Shown here: in pieces, positions 27,650 through 32,576 of the stretch
How the letters are laid out: every line of letters begins with the position of its first letter
Numbering within the stretch: the first letter of the stretch is position 1
Assembly (NCBI RefSeq): GCF_002252635.1
Contig: NZ_NQKX01000008.1
Location: 62,001-126,000, forward strand
Length of the DNA stretch: 64,000 bases
Reading direction: 5' to 3'
Origin: Synechococcus sp. MW101C3
GTDB lineage: Bacteria > Cyanobacteriota > Cyanobacteriia > PCC-6307 > Cyanobiaceae
The notes under the pieces: generated by a model
Told to the model about the DNA's origin: nothing
What the model saw: the letters and a program-made list of their open reading frames with translations, nothing else
Database searches by the model: none
Made by a program: the position numbers and the translations under genes

Positions 27650-28180
27650 GTGCTGAGCCCTCCGCCCGTTCCTGCCGCCCAGCAGCGCCTGTGGATGGAG
27701 CGGTTGCTGCGCCAGGCCCGCCGCGCCGGTGACAGGGGAGAAATCCCTGTGGCGGCGGTGGTGCTGGATGGGGAAGGGCGCTGCCTCGGCTGGGGCAGCA
27801 ACCGCCGCCAGCTGGATCAGGATCCGCTCGGCCATGCCGAGCTGGTGGCGTTGAGCCAGGCCGCGGCCATGCGTGGCAGCTGGCGTTTCAACGACTGCAG
27901 CTTGATCGTGACGCTCGAACCCTGCCCGATGTGCGCTGGCGCCCTGGTGCAGGCCCGTATGGGGCGGGTGCTGTTCGCCGCCGGAGATGCCAAACGAGGA
28001 GGGTTGGGTGGCAGCGTGGACCTGGCCCGGCACCCGAGCGCTCACCACCGCATGGAGGTGGAGGGTGGCTTGCTGGAGGTGCAGGCCACCCTGCTCCTGG
28101 CGGATTGGTTCAGGCAGCGGCGACAGCGACGGCCGTGCGGCCCGACTGGAACGCCGGCAGCTCCGTCTCCAGCAGATTGA
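27650..28180 (+). CDS. tadA: tRNA-specific adenosine deaminase
   Basis: Converts A34 of tRNA-Arg(ACG) to inosine. The deaminase zinc site is complete: HAELVAL (His and catalytic Glu, about residues 62-64) and EPCPMCAGAL (about 90). I prefer GTG 27650 (176 residues), because the frame's upstream 29 codons lie antisense to the decarboxylase start and lack similarity; ATG 27695 is also possible. The C-terminal tail of about 20 residues is Pro/Thr/Ala-rich and overlaps the end of the aminotransferase gene by 71 bases. Confidence 0.92.
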   Translation: MLSPPPVPAAQQRLWMERLLRQARRAGDRGEIPVAAVVLDGEGRCLGWGSNRRQLDQDPLGHAELVALSQAAAMRGSWRFNDCSLIVTLEPCPMCAGALVQARMGRVLFAAGDAKRGGLGGSVDLARHPSAHHRMEVEGGLLEVQATLLLADWFRQRRQRRPCGPTGTPAAPSPAD

Positions 28181-29306
28181 GCAGCAGATCGACGTTTTCG
28201 GCGCGGCTGTTGTAGCCCATCAGGCCGATGCGCCACACCGAGCCGGCCAGCGCGCCGAGCCCGCCGCCCACTTCGATGCCGTGGCGGTTGAGCAGATGGA
28301 GGCTGAAGGCCTTTCCATCCACACCCTCGGGAATGCGCACCGTGGTGAGCGTGGGCAGGCGCAGGGGCTGTGGCACAAGCAGCTCAAGGCCGAGGCGCTC
28401 CAGGCCGCTCCAGAGGCGCTCGGCGTTGCTGCGATGGCGGCCCCAGGCGTGCTCCAGGCCTTCCTCGGCCAGCAGGCGCAACGCTTCGCGCATGCCGAAG
28501 TTCATGTTCACCGGTGCCGTGTGGTGGTACACCCGGTTGCTCCCCCAGTACTGGTTGAGCAGTGACACATCCAGGTACCAGTTGGGCACCTTGCCGCTGC
28601 GGGCAGCCAGCTTGGCTTCAGCCCGAGGGCCCATGGTGAACGGACCGAGGCCGGGAGGGCAGCTCAACCCTTTCTGGCTGCAGCTGTAGGCGAGATCCAC
28701 GCCCCAGGCGTCGAGATGAACCGGCACGGCGCCGAGCGATGTGACCGTATCGAGCAGCAGCAGGCAGTCGTGTTGGCGGCAGAGATCGCCGATGCCTTCC
28801 ATCGGCTGGCACACACCGGTGGAGGTTTCGGCATGAACAAGCGCCAGGATCTTCGGCTTGTGGAGCGCCATCGCCGCTTCGAGCTCTTCGAGGCTGAAGG
28901 CTTCCCCCCAGGGGCGCTCGATCGTGACCACCTCAGCGCGGTAGCGCTGGGCCATGTCGACGAGCCGCAGGCCGAAATAGCCCTTCACGGCCACGAGAAC
29001 CTTGTCACCCGGTTCGATGGTGTTGGCCAGGGTGGCTTCCATGGCGGCACTGCCGGTGCCGCTCATCGGGATGGTGAGGCGGTTGTCGGTCTGCCAGGCG
29101 TAACGCAGCAGTTCCTGCACCTCGCCCATCAGCTCGATGTAAATCGGATCGAGGTGACCGATCGGTGTGCGTGCCAGCGCAGCCAGCACCGTGGGATGGG
29201 CATTCGACGGCCCTGGGCCCAGCAGCAGGCGATCGGGGGTGGCGATCGGTTCCAGGGGGAGCCGATGACGATCGTTCACCGGGAGATCGGAAGACTGTGT
29301 GACCAA
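28110..29306 (-). CDS. Class V aminotransferase, serine/alanine-glyoxylate type
   Basis: PLP enzyme that transfers the amino group of Ser or Ala to glyoxylate in photorespiration. The 398 residues open with DRLLLGPGPSNAHPTVL. They carry PMSGTGSAAMEATLAN, HAETSTGVCQPMEGIG, LLLDTVTSLGAVP (Asp contacting PLP) and the lysine motif YSCSQKGLSCPPG. Older cyanobacterial annotations call the same family a soluble hydrogenase small subunit, which the motifs do not support. It is convergent with tadA (71-base overlap). Substrate preference is inferred from the family. Confidence 0.93.
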   Translation of the reverse strand: MVTQSSDLPVNDRHRLPLEPIATPDRLLLGPGPSNAHPTVLAALARTPIGHLDPIYIELMGEVQELLRYAWQTDNRLTIPMSGTGSAAMEATLANTIEPGDKVLVAVKGYFGLRLVDMAQRYRAEVVTIERPWGEAFSLEELEAAMALHKPKILALVHAETSTGVCQPMEGIGDLCRQHDCLLLLDTVTSLGAVPVHLDAWGVDLAYSCSQKGLSCPPGLGPFTMGPRAEAKLAARSGKVPNWYLDVSLLNQYWGSNRVYHHTAPVNMNFGMREALRLLAEEGLEHAWGRHRSNAERLWSGLERLGLELLVPQPLRLPTLTTVRIPEGVDGKAFSLHLLNRHGIEVGGGLGALAGSVWRIGLMGYNSRAENVDLLLNLLETELPAFQSGRTAVAVAAA

Positions 29307-29388: not shown

Positions 29389-29907
29389 TCAGCGGCAGCG
29401 CACGTCGAGCGCAGACAGGCCACGGGCCATGTGATCGAAGGGGACCCGCACGAGCGGAGCCGGATCAAAACCGGCTTCGGCCAGCCGCTCCATCACCACA
29501 TCGGCCAGCAGCGTGATGCTGCGCACCGTGGGGCCCGTGGGAACTCCCAGGCTCTTGTAGGTGTCGTCGAGACCGTTCAACACCCGCTCGTTGAGAATCG
29601 TGGCGTCGTCGGCGATCAGGGCGTAGCTGGCGTAGCGCAGGAAATAGTCCATGTCCCGCAGGCAGGCCGCCAGGCGCCGGGTGGTGTAGGCATTGCCGCC
29701 GGGCAGCAGCAGCTCGGGATCCTGCTCGAACAGGCGCCGGCTGGCTTCCCGCACGATGTCGGTGGCTCCCTGGTTGATGATTTCCACCGCCATGAGCCGT
29801 TGTTCGCCTTCCGCCAGGTAGGCGGAGATGCGATCGATCGCGTTCCGATCGAAATAGCGCCCCAGCTGGTCATACCGGCCGATCAGACCGGTGATGGCAT
29901 CGCGCAT
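29389..29907 (-). CDS. apcF: Allophycocyanin beta-18 subunit
   Basis: Phycobilisome core protein that replaces one beta chain near the terminal emitters and helps pass energy to the photosystems. The 172-residue globin-like protein has the chromophore cysteine in TTRRLAACLRDMDYFLRYA, the methyl-Asn region GGNAYTTRR and the family-typical RLFEQDPELLLPGG. The longer length, about 170 rather than 161, and this last segment mark ApcF rather than ApcB. It stands apart from the other apc genes, as usual for apcF, and is divergent from the glutamine-synthetase-like gene across 200 bases. Confidence 0.93.
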   Translation of the reverse strand: MRDAITGLIGRYDQLGRYFDRNAIDRISAYLAEGEQRLMAVEIINQGATDIVREASRRLFEQDPELLLPGGNAYTTRRLAACLRDMDYFLRYASYALIADDATILNERVLNGLDDTYKSLGVPTGPTVRSITLLADVVMERLAEAGFDPAPLVRVPFDHMARGLSALDVRCR

Positions 29908-30007
29908 GACGTTGAAATCGACGCACCTGGGCTGGAAGCTAGCACTGTGAAATGCCCAGAACCCTGTCCAGCTGAGGGATCTGCCGAATCTGACAGAAAC
30001 GGTTACG

Positions 30008-30053
30008 CAGGCCGTTCGGCCTGTTTCAGCCCCGCCGGCCCTACGGGGGCCGG
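30008..30053 (+). promoter_or_regulatory. Two strong tandem hairpins in the leader of the glutamine-synthetase-like gene
   Basis: Hairpin 1 (30008-30023) is the perfect palindrome CAGGCCGTTCGGCCTG. Hairpin 2 (30035-30053) pairs CCGGCCC with GGGCCGG around a five-base loop. They end 54 bases before the ATG at 30108. Hairpin 1 is followed by TTTC only, so it is a weak terminator at best. They may act as an attenuator, an mRNA stabiliser, or the end of a short leader RNA. I see neither a GTA-N8-TAC NtcA box nor the conserved segments of a glutamine riboswitch. Confidence 0.55.
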
Positions 30054-30107
30054 GGTCATGCTGGTCTGCTGGTTCCCACTTGCGCTCCTCTTCCTTCCCC
30101 TTCGCCC

Positions 30108-31391
30108 ATGGCTCTGACCGTCGATGACGTCCTGCGCCGGCTGCGTGATCAGGCGATTGAACGGGTCGATCTCGGCCTCTGCGACCTGTCCGGCCGCTGG
30201 CATCACCTCACCGTGGCCGCCGAGCTGATCCAGCCGTCCAGTTTCAGCGAAGGTGTGTCCGTTGCAGCCCTGCCCGCCGCTGGCTTCGGCGGGGAGTCGC
30301 TCGCGGCAGGGGATCTGCCGGAAGCGGCGGTGGTGCTCGATGCCGCCAGTGCCTGGCGTGATCCGTTCCTACCCACCGCACCGCTCAGCCTGTTCGGCTG
30401 GATGCGCTGCCGCTCCGATGGCCATCCCGGCTGCGCCCGCTCGCTGGCCAGCCGCGCCACCGAGGCGCTGGCCAGCTCTGGCCTGGCGGACACGGCCCTG
30501 TTCCAGGTGGCTCCGCATCTGCTGCTGCGTGGCGCCGGTGAACGCTCCGCCGGCCGCATCCCCCTGGGGGAGCACGGACAGGCAGCAGCGTTGCCGGAGC
30601 GGTCGCTGGCCTTCCGCAGCGAACTGCTCTCGCTGCTGGGCACGCCTGCCCCCCTGCAGGCCGCGGAGCTGCTTCCCGCTGCCGATGGCCTGATGCGGCT
30701 CGGCTACACCGCCCATCATCTGGCCGCCTGTTGCGGGCTGTCAGCGGCCCTGGTGGCGGCGGAGCGGCCGGCGGAGGCGGCCGGCTGCCTGCCGGTGAGC
30801 CAGAGCCTTCGCAAGGCCCGCCTGCCGTTGTTCTACGGCGAAGGCACCCGCGCCGATCTCTCCCAGACGGCCCGCTGGTACATCGGTGGGCTGTTGCTGC
30901 ATGCCCCGGCCCTGCTTGCCCTCACCGGCACCGGTGCGTCGATCGATGGCGGTTGGGGGGGCGCCGGCAGCGCTGCGCCACTGCGCCGGGCCTACGCGCC
31001 AGGGGTTGGCAGCACCGTGGTAGGTCTGCCGGTGGCCCGGCCCACGCCGGCCAGCCAGCGACTGGCGTTCGTGGCCATTGAGGCCGCTGCCAATCCCTAC
31101 GTCTCCTGGAGCGCCCTGCTGCTGGCGGGCCTCGATGGCATCCGCCGCCAGATCGATCCCGGCGGGATCCAGGCGCTCGAGCCCTCCCATCCGCCGGCGG
31201 AGGCCCAGCCAGACCCGTTCCCGCCGCTGCCCACGCACCCGCTCGCCGCGCTGGAGGCTCTGGCCACGGACCATGCCTTCCTGCTGGAGGGTGACGTGTT
31301 CAGCAGTGCCTGGATTGCCTTCTGGATCCAGCGACAGCGGCGGCGACTGCCGCTGGCCCCACCTCAAGGGGAGCCGTTCCGGTCGGTCTGA
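30108..31391 (+). CDS. Glutamine synthetase-like protein lacking the active site (putative pseudoenzyme)
   Basis: A 427-residue relative of type I glutamine synthetase (usual length about 470). Scaffold signatures are clear: DLGLCDLSGRWHHLTVA (22-36), FYGEGTRADLSQTARWYIGG (242-261), HAPALLALTGTGAS, ANPYVSWSALLLAGLDGIRR (328-347) and ALATDHAFLLEGDVF near the end. All catalytic motifs are gone. The FGPEPEF metal box reads FQVAPHL, the HHEVAGxGQHE segment is deleted or scrambled near 178-193, NGSGMHxH reads AAGCLPVS, and the RIP and EFR boxes read GLP and AFV. It has no frameshift or stop. It cannot make glutamine as written; a structural or regulatory role is inferred. Confidence 0.85.
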   Translation: MALTVDDVLRRLRDQAIERVDLGLCDLSGRWHHLTVAAELIQPSSFSEGVSVAALPAAGFGGESLAAGDLPEAAVVLDAASAWRDPFLPTAPLSLFGWMRCRSDGHPGCARSLASRATEALASSGLADTALFQVAPHLLLRGAGERSAGRIPLGEHGQAAALPERSLAFRSELLSLLGTPAPLQAAELLPAADGLMRLGYTAHHLAACCGLSAALVAAERPAEAAGCLPVSQSLRKARLPLFYGEGTRADLSQTARWYIGGLLLHAPALLALTGTGASIDGGWGGAGSAAPLRRAYAPGVGSTVVGLPVARPTPASQRLAFVAIEAAANPYVSWSALLLAGLDGIRRQIDPGGIQALEPSHPPAEAQPDPFPPLPTHPLAALEALATDHAFLLEGDVFSSAWIAFWIQRQRRRLPLAPPQGEPFRSV

Positions 31392-31499
31392 GCCCGCGAT
31401 CGGACCGGTTTCGCCGGAAGATTCGGGCGCGTGGGGCTCGCGACCTCCGCGGCGATCCGCTGGAATGAAGCCGATGTGAAGGGATGTTCCCGCGCCGCC

Positions 31500-32576
31500 A
31501 TGCCCGATGCCGTGAGCAAGCTCGCGTACCAGACCCTCCAGCAAGGCAAGAGCTTGGTGGGAGTGGCGCACAAGGAGCTGAGCACCCGTCTGGGGCAGCT
31601 GCTGGCCGCCGACGGGGGCCCGAAGACCGTACCGGTGCCACCGGAGATGCTCAACCAGCTGCGCGCCTCCATGGACCGCTTGCTGGAACTCGACTGGCAG
31701 GAAGCGGAGCGGGGGGTGTATCCCGCCTCGCTGTTGTTCGATGCCCCCTGGCTTGACTGGGCCACCCGCTACCCCTTGGTCTGGCTCGACCTGCCCAACA
31801 TCTGGAGCCGGCGCAGCCAGCGCAATGTCCGCGACCTGCCGCGGGATGTGGAGCCGGAGAACTACCCCGGCTATTACCTGCAGAACTTCCACCACCAGAC
31901 CGACGGTTACCTGAGCGACCACTCCGCCGCGCTCTACGACCTGCAGGTGGAGATCCTGTTCAACGGCACCGCCGATCCGATGCGTCGCCGTCTGCTGGCG
32001 CCGCTTCAGCGGGGCCTGCGCGCCTTCGCCGATCGTCGTCCGGGTCAGCTGCGGGTGCTTGATGTGGCCGCCGGCACGGGCCGCACCCTGCGCCAGCTGC
32101 GCGGGGCCCTGCCCGGGGTGCAGCTGGTGGGCCTCGACCTCTCGGCCGCCTATCTCCGTGAAGCCAACCGCTGCCTGAGCCAGCTGCCGGGTGAGCTGCC
32201 CCAGCTGGTGCAGGGCAATGCTGAGGCCCTTCCGTTCGCCGATGGCTCCTTCCAGGCCGTCACCTGCGTGTTCCTGCTCCATGAACTTCCCGCCGAGGCG
32301 CGGCAGAACGTGATCAACGCCTGCTTCAAGGTGCTCGAGCCGGGAGGGGTCCTACTGCTGGCCGACTCGATCCAGCTGGCCGACTCGCCCCAGTTCTCTG
32401 CAGCGATGGAGAACTTCCGCCGTGTGTTCCACGAGCCCTATTACCGCGATTACGTGGGCGACGACATCGAGGCCCGGCTGCAACAGGCCGGTTTTGAGGC
32501 GGTCACGGCCCAGACGCATTTCATGACCCGGGTCTGGTGCGCCACACGCCCTCGCGAGGCAGCGGTGACGGCCTGA
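31500..32576 (+). CDS. SAM-dependent class I methyltransferase
   Basis: A 358-residue protein with an N-terminal domain of about 170 residues (WLDWATRYPLVWLDLPNIWS) and a C-terminal Rossmann methyltransferase domain. Motif I is VLDVAAGTGRTLRQL, the acidic loop is LVGLDLSAAYLREA, and motif IV is GNAEALPFADGSFQAVTC, with LLHELP after it. The start is ATG 31500 (MPDAVSKLAYQTL); 23 further open codons upstream are not convincing. Similar two-part methyltransferases occur throughout cyanobacteria and plastids, but the substrate is not known to me. It follows the glutamine-synthetase-like gene by 108 bases on the same strand. Confidence 0.88.
   Translation: MPDAVSKLAYQTLQQGKSLVGVAHKELSTRLGQLLAADGGPKTVPVPPEMLNQLRASMDRLLELDWQEAERGVYPASLLFDAPWLDWATRYPLVWLDLPNIWSRRSQRNVRDLPRDVEPENYPGYYLQNFHHQTDGYLSDHSAALYDLQVEILFNGTADPMRRRLLAPLQRGLRAFADRRPGQLRVLDVAAGTGRTLRQLRGALPGVQLVGLDLSAAYLREANRCLSQLPGELPQLVQGNAEALPFADGSFQAVTCVFLLHELPAEARQNVINACFKVLEPGGVLLLADSIQLADSPQFSAAMENFRRVFHEPYYRDYVGDDIEARLQQAGFEAVTAQTHFMTRVWCATRPREAAVTA

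Follow-up and report, generated by a model that had tools for sequence, protein, structure and literature searches.

The gene at positions 30108 to 31391 of the window, the whole 64,000-nucleotide stretch of Synechococcus sp. MW101C3 DNA analysed here, is the ancestral glnA of its lineage, still at its ancestral place, and encodes a protein that has lost most catalytic residues of one of the most conserved enzymes known, glutamine synthetase. From comparative sequence analysis we consider it fairly probable that this glnA lost catalysis in place after takeover by the type III glutamine synthetase GlnN, and that its product, here termed pseudo-GlnA, has been kept as a binding-type pseudoenzyme. 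The features of the locus are as follows.

28110 to 29306, minus strand: class V aminotransferase (spt-type), syntenic landmark
29389 to 29907, minus strand: allophycocyanin beta-type subunit at the apcF position, syntenic landmark
29908 to 30107, no strand: divergent intergenic region between apcF and pseudo-glnA, without a GTAN8TAC-type NtcA box
30108 to 31391, plus strand: pseudo-GlnA, 427 residues, degenerate positional orthologue of type I glutamine synthetase; ATG start, single open frame
30501 to 30521, plus strand: FQVAPHL where canonical GlnA has FGPEPEF; A and H stand at the metal-ligand positions E129 and E131
30777 to 30800, plus strand: (A)AGCLPVS aligned in place of NGSGMHVH; N264, H269 and H271 gone
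30837 to 30890, plus strand: GEGTRADLSQTARWYIGG, best-kept block, common to canonical and disabled GlnA
31008 to 31031, plus strand: GSTVVGLP aligned in place of RSAAVRIP; R339 and R344 gone
31059 to 31073, plus strand: RLAFV aligned in place of RLEFR; E357 and R359 gone, R355 retained
31458 to 32576, plus strand: class I methyltransferase, downstream landmark; an in-frame upstream start at 31431 is possible

Both end-to-end homology and ancestral synteny identify pseudo-GlnA as a type I GlnA by descent. Profile–profile comparison of the three orthologues of the window genus with canonical picocyanobacterial GlnA aligned residues 1–410 of 427 (probability 100, E value 1.4e-58, 39% identity), bearing out the homology proposed in an earlier, sequence-only reading of this DNA. 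A Pfam scan returned PF00120 only, at 94.5 bits against a cut-off of 24, and the TIGR00653 GlnA model gave 129.1 bits, under the cut-off of 429.15 that defines the GlnA enzyme family. Membership of type III GlnN was defined by the GSIII_N domain (PF12437) and a length of about 720 residues, and the scan found no PF12437 in the 427-residue protein. Canonical picocyanobacterial GlnA, for example that of Synechococcus WH7803, shares with pseudo-GlnA the apcF–methyltransferase locus and homology along its length at 34–41% identity; unlike it, pseudo-GlnA lacks the metal, ATP, glutamate and ammonium ligands and carries replacements of two internal stretches and of the C-terminal tail.

In Salmonella numbering, 15 of 18 catalytic positions are lost in the alignment of all three genus orthologues: D50, S53, E129, E131, E212, E220, N264, G265, H269, H271, E327, R339, R344, E357 and R359. 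Residues R355 and S273 are retained, and the R321 position is an arginine in two of the three orthologues within an otherwise rewritten stretch. The motif replacements listed by the earlier reading (FQVAPHL, AAGCLPVS, GLP and AFV) are correct, with NGSGMHVHQ becoming AAGCLPVSQ and NRSAAVRIP becoming VGSTVVGLP in alignment to GlnA. Since the metal and ATP ligands are gone, glutamine synthetase chemistry should be impossible by the established mechanism of the enzyme. The HHEVA..QHE stretch is deleted, as had been noted, and we find that a second stretch of about 35–40 residues around GGNLANKIQLKEGYFPVSPNDT is likewise largely missing or replaced. A genus-specific stretch at about residues 142–172, GAGERSAGRIPLGEHGQAAALPERSLAFR, substitutes part of the old catalytic region. 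The C-terminal segment of type I glutamine synthetases locks the two rings together; because this segment is replaced in the window genus, a classical dodecamer of pseudo-GlnA is doubtful. AlphaFold2 prediction from 28 sequences reached a mean pLDDT of 44.6 for pseudo-GlnA, but a canonical GlnA control with the same alignment reached only 55.7, so the low value carries no information on the fold. Preferential loss of catalytic residues was weakly supported (p 0.01–0.6, depending on lineage). We judge a long antisense frame opposite pseudo-glnA, open in all three orthologues, to be a side effect of high G+C.

Conserved gene order ties this gene to the housekeeping locus. Canonical loci in other genera and the disabled loci share one gene order, PLP-decarboxylase, tadA, spt, apcF, glnA, methyltransferase, except that in a second, large genus the methyltransferase does not adjoin glnA at the disabled loci and at some of the canonical ones. 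This makes the window gene the orthologue of glnA, not a copy of it. The earlier reading had correctly placed it beside spt and apcF and had suggested a duplicate that lost catalysis in place; the loss in place stands and the duplication does not, the gene being the sole glnA orthologue. A search of the 3.03-Mb, 99.99% complete host genome for PF00120 proteins found five, namely pseudo-GlnA, two TIGR03105-type proteins, one gamma-glutamylputrescine-synthetase-like protein and one GlnN, and no canonical or second GlnA. The genome check that the earlier reading had called for thus leaves a single intact GlnN, with motifs NGSGKHVNWS, RHNEVAPGQFEIAP and NRFEFR and a dN/dS of 0.021–0.023 within the window genus. 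Because no catalytic GlnA is encoded, there is no GlnA dodecamer for pseudo-GlnA to poison or tune, which was one of the roles previously suggested for it. A second suggested role, as a glutamine or 2-oxoglutarate sensor, finds no support, the substrate-binding arginines and glutamates being gone and the NtcA box of most canonical loci missing. A third, as a scaffold or binding protein, is possible on the sequence.

The surviving protein is under purifying selection. We estimated dN/dS by pairwise maximum likelihood with our own implementation of a codon model, and obtained 0.21, 0.20 and 0.25 for the three pseudo-glnA pairs of the window genus at unsaturated dS values of 0.44, 0.43 and 0.18, with ω = 1 rejected in each (2ΔlnL 82, 90 and 39). 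All full 72-column windows fall below 1, with the minimum (0.08–0.17) in alignment columns 145–288, which contain the stretch that has no clear counterpart in canonical GlnA. In neutral simulations of the window reading frame, a stop was gained in 239 of 300 runs by 0.09 and in 285 of 300 by 0.2 substitutions per site, and all indels among the three orthologues are in frame. These dN/dS values, with ω = 1 rejected, therefore indicate constraint on the protein rather than decay of a pseudogene: the stops, frameshifts and near-unity dN/dS that mark pseudogenes, and that the earlier reading had named as signs of decay in close strains, are not found, and catalytic loss is combined with an open, selected frame, as expected of a pseudoenzyme. 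That reading had taken the intact frame as proof of selection; the frame is indeed intact, but openness by itself is uninformative at high G+C, and selection is established by the dN/dS test and the simulation instead. Among flanking genes, dN/dS is 0.01–0.04 for apcF, spt and the methyltransferase, 0.07–0.09 for the PLP-decarboxylase and 0.10–0.20 for tadA, and canonical GlnA stands at 0.02. Because constraint on pseudo-GlnA is weaker than on apcF, spt, the methyltransferase and canonical GlnA, part of the protein is relaxed.

Across related genera the locus presents a graded series: glnA is intact, disabled in part, disabled fully with its frame open and constrained, frameshifted, or cleanly deleted. 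Pseudo-glnA is present in all three genomes of the window genus, which includes the isolate Synechococcus sp. ATX 2A4. In the second genus, 17 genomes carry an open disabled copy of 423–448 residues at the same locus, 36–45% identical to the window protein, and other members retain canonical GlnA there. These copies have lost H269, N264, R339, R344 and E357; R321, R359 and H271 are kept in all and R355 in 16 of 17. All 17 carriers encode GlnN and none a canonical GlnA, and dN/dS is 0.09–0.15 in the closest pairs among the eight loci tested. A third genus of two genomes (L031 and L038) has a partly disabled GlnA (E129Q, E212A, loss of E220, H269P and E327A) with a dN/dS of 0.24 and a GlnA model score that is still high (E 1e-150); judged by its residues, this GlnA is at an early stage of inactivation. 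At these two loci the substrate arginines are kept, and four metal or catalytic carboxylates and H269 are lost. In G052, a relative that has GlnN, the glnA at this locus (L058, 4757–6165) is a genuine pseudogene, interrupted by several stops and frameshifts; another member of its genus (G084; L205) has an intact glnA. Clean deletion has left apcF and the methyltransferase side by side in four genomes; at these loci (L199, L200, L203 and L204), all in genomes with GlnN, roughly 115–225 bases separate the two genes. Two further genomes lack glnA beside apcF, and G049 and G107, among the glnA-lacking genomes, belong to the flank-tree sister genus of the window genus. An apparently broken glnA in G060 proved to be merely a run of N in the assembly.

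These losses all fall in GlnN-bearing genomes. In genomes with a completeness of at least 90% and no more than 5% contamination, counted by hand from tables and not independent by descent, GlnA fell under the family cut-off in 24 of 106 GlnN-positive genomes versus 0 of 138 GlnN-negative genomes with a GlnA hit; seven genomes in which neither GlnA nor GlnN was hit were excluded, assembly gaps being the probable cause. We propose that type III GlnN became the glutamine synthetase of the cell and that GlnA catalysis was then lost, an order of events that we infer. The protein has since been maintained by purifying selection, as measured in the three window-genus genomes and independently in 8 of the 17 second-genus carriers. 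Pseudo-GlnA would most likely serve as a glutamine synthetase-derived protein without ligase chemistry whose retained surfaces bind a partner. Its duty could be a non-catalytic one kept from the old GlnA or a new one; a binding-only protein, with the conserved part as scaffold, is the most economical reading of these sequences. Since the gene has been frameshifted or deleted outright in sister genera, some lineages can do without this role.

The same frameshift in G052 and deletions in relatives, including the sister genus, together with a dN/dS above that of the neighbours and the missing NtcA box, would also suit a slow decay after the GlnN takeover, in which open frames are transient and weak residual selection acts, for example, against toxic or aggregating products. 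We consider such decay unlikely, given the rejection of ω = 1, the 17 further intact copies and their low dN/dS in the second genus, the speed at which stops would arise in a neutral frame and the in-frame indels. More improbable still is an enzyme that uses the old scaffold for another chemistry, independent of the metal, ATP and glutamate ligands: the genus-specific stretch GAGERSAGRIPLGEHGQAAALPERSLAFR does lie within the most constrained windows, but Pfam and NCBIfam scans of pseudo-GlnA found no family match outside the glutamine synthetase families, and the residues common to the disabled copies of the window and second genera are mostly old structural ones. That pseudo-GlnA co-assembles with and regulates another protein of this fold is very improbable: the two TIGR03105-type paralogues, both under constraint, and the gamma-glutamylputrescine-synthetase-like one are encoded in the same genome, but such paralogues are found whether a genome's GlnA is canonical, disabled or absent, and they give no co-occurrence signal.

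Whether retention of a disabled GlnA arose once or several times bears on what the retained protein does. The tree of flanking proteins places the window genus with g48, the disabled clade of the second genus with that genus's own canonical members, and the third genus with g59. The GlnA tree clusters the disabled GlnAs of the window and second genera (98/96) on very long branches, and a topology test rejects placing each disabled GlnA with its flank-defined relatives, again across very long branches. Entered alone, the window-genus GlnA joins its flank-tree sister genus with weak support (90/46); the disabled GlnA of the second genus groups with that same sister genus, not with its own genus. 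Because the branches are very long and changes favoured by high G+C (M to L, K to R) are shared, we regard the GlnA-tree grouping as unreliable. A single origin with transfer is possible, given a few changes in common: two lineages share H269P, and two have TVV for AAV. We put at somewhat under an even chance the alternative that disabling with the protein kept occurred repeatedly and in place, in the window genus, the second genus and partly the third, pointing to a non-catalytic duty of GlnA; if true, that duty would be important enough to outlast replacement by GlnN.

Lengsin, a catalytically inactive glutamine synthetase-domain protein from the lens of vertebrates that reportedly retains the dodecamer, offers a comparison at the level of function only: it too derives from glutamine synthetase, is inactive and has a non-catalytic role. 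It differs in its unrelated origin and host and in keeping a dodecamer that is doubtful for pseudo-GlnA, and unlike lengsin pseudo-GlnA occupies the place of a housekeeping gene. Among cyanobacteria, Pseudanabaena PCC 6903 and Synechococcus RS9917 are reported to have GlnN only, with glnA absent (PMC6316151, PMC4923085); as in the window genus, type III is their sole main glutamine synthetase, but the window genus retains a disabled, constrained glnA. Freshwater SC5.3 picocyanobacteria, also reported without glnA (PMC9361551), resemble the window genus in having lost type I function with glnN present. According to the same survey, every other picocyanobacterium has glnA; its main text is silent on disabled copies, and its set included ATX-2A4, a carrier of disabled glnA (PMC9361551). 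In the open-licence literature we found no report of disabled but conserved glnA copies. Annotations of glnA as present in picocyanobacterial surveys can mislead on nitrogen assimilation, and this single locus, with its naturally occurring series of states linked to GlnN, provides a system for probing roles of GlnA beyond glutamine synthesis.

Upstream of canonical glnA in the second genus and in g35 and g59 relatives, a GTAN8TAC-like box (at most one mismatch) lies 64–93 bases before the start, and the dead glnA of G052 still has an NtcA box at −79. Unlike most canonical glnA, pseudo-glnA has none; the disabled loci lack a GTAN8TAC-like box except for a one-mismatch match in L043, which its two sister loci do not have, and a distant upstream one in L054. 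The canonical, catalytic glnA of the genus that is sister to the window genus (L060, G083) also has no recognisable NtcA box, so in the window lineage NtcA control may have been lost earlier than catalysis. No glutamine riboswitch was found near pseudo-glnA. In the second genus, a basic open reading frame of 36–37 residues is present in 11 of 13 genomes with canonical GlnA and in 0 of 16 with disabled GlnA, the latter forming one clade, and stands behind a glutamine riboswitch (RF01739) where one was searched for. This frame (L182–L187; for example G063:C1:250882-250992, 37 residues) may encode a candidate small regulator of glutamine synthetase, lost along with its target. A sub-threshold glutamine riboswitch (G000:C6:227860-227936, L179; 33.8 bits against a gathering score of 35) lies upstream of a 73-residue protein that carries three YRG repeats, an arrangement also seen in canonical relatives. 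Between apcF and glnA (29908–30107 in the window; L042–L061), a conserved element, GACAGAAACGGTTAC, is nearly unchanged at intact, disabled and dead loci and is probably part of the apcF control region.
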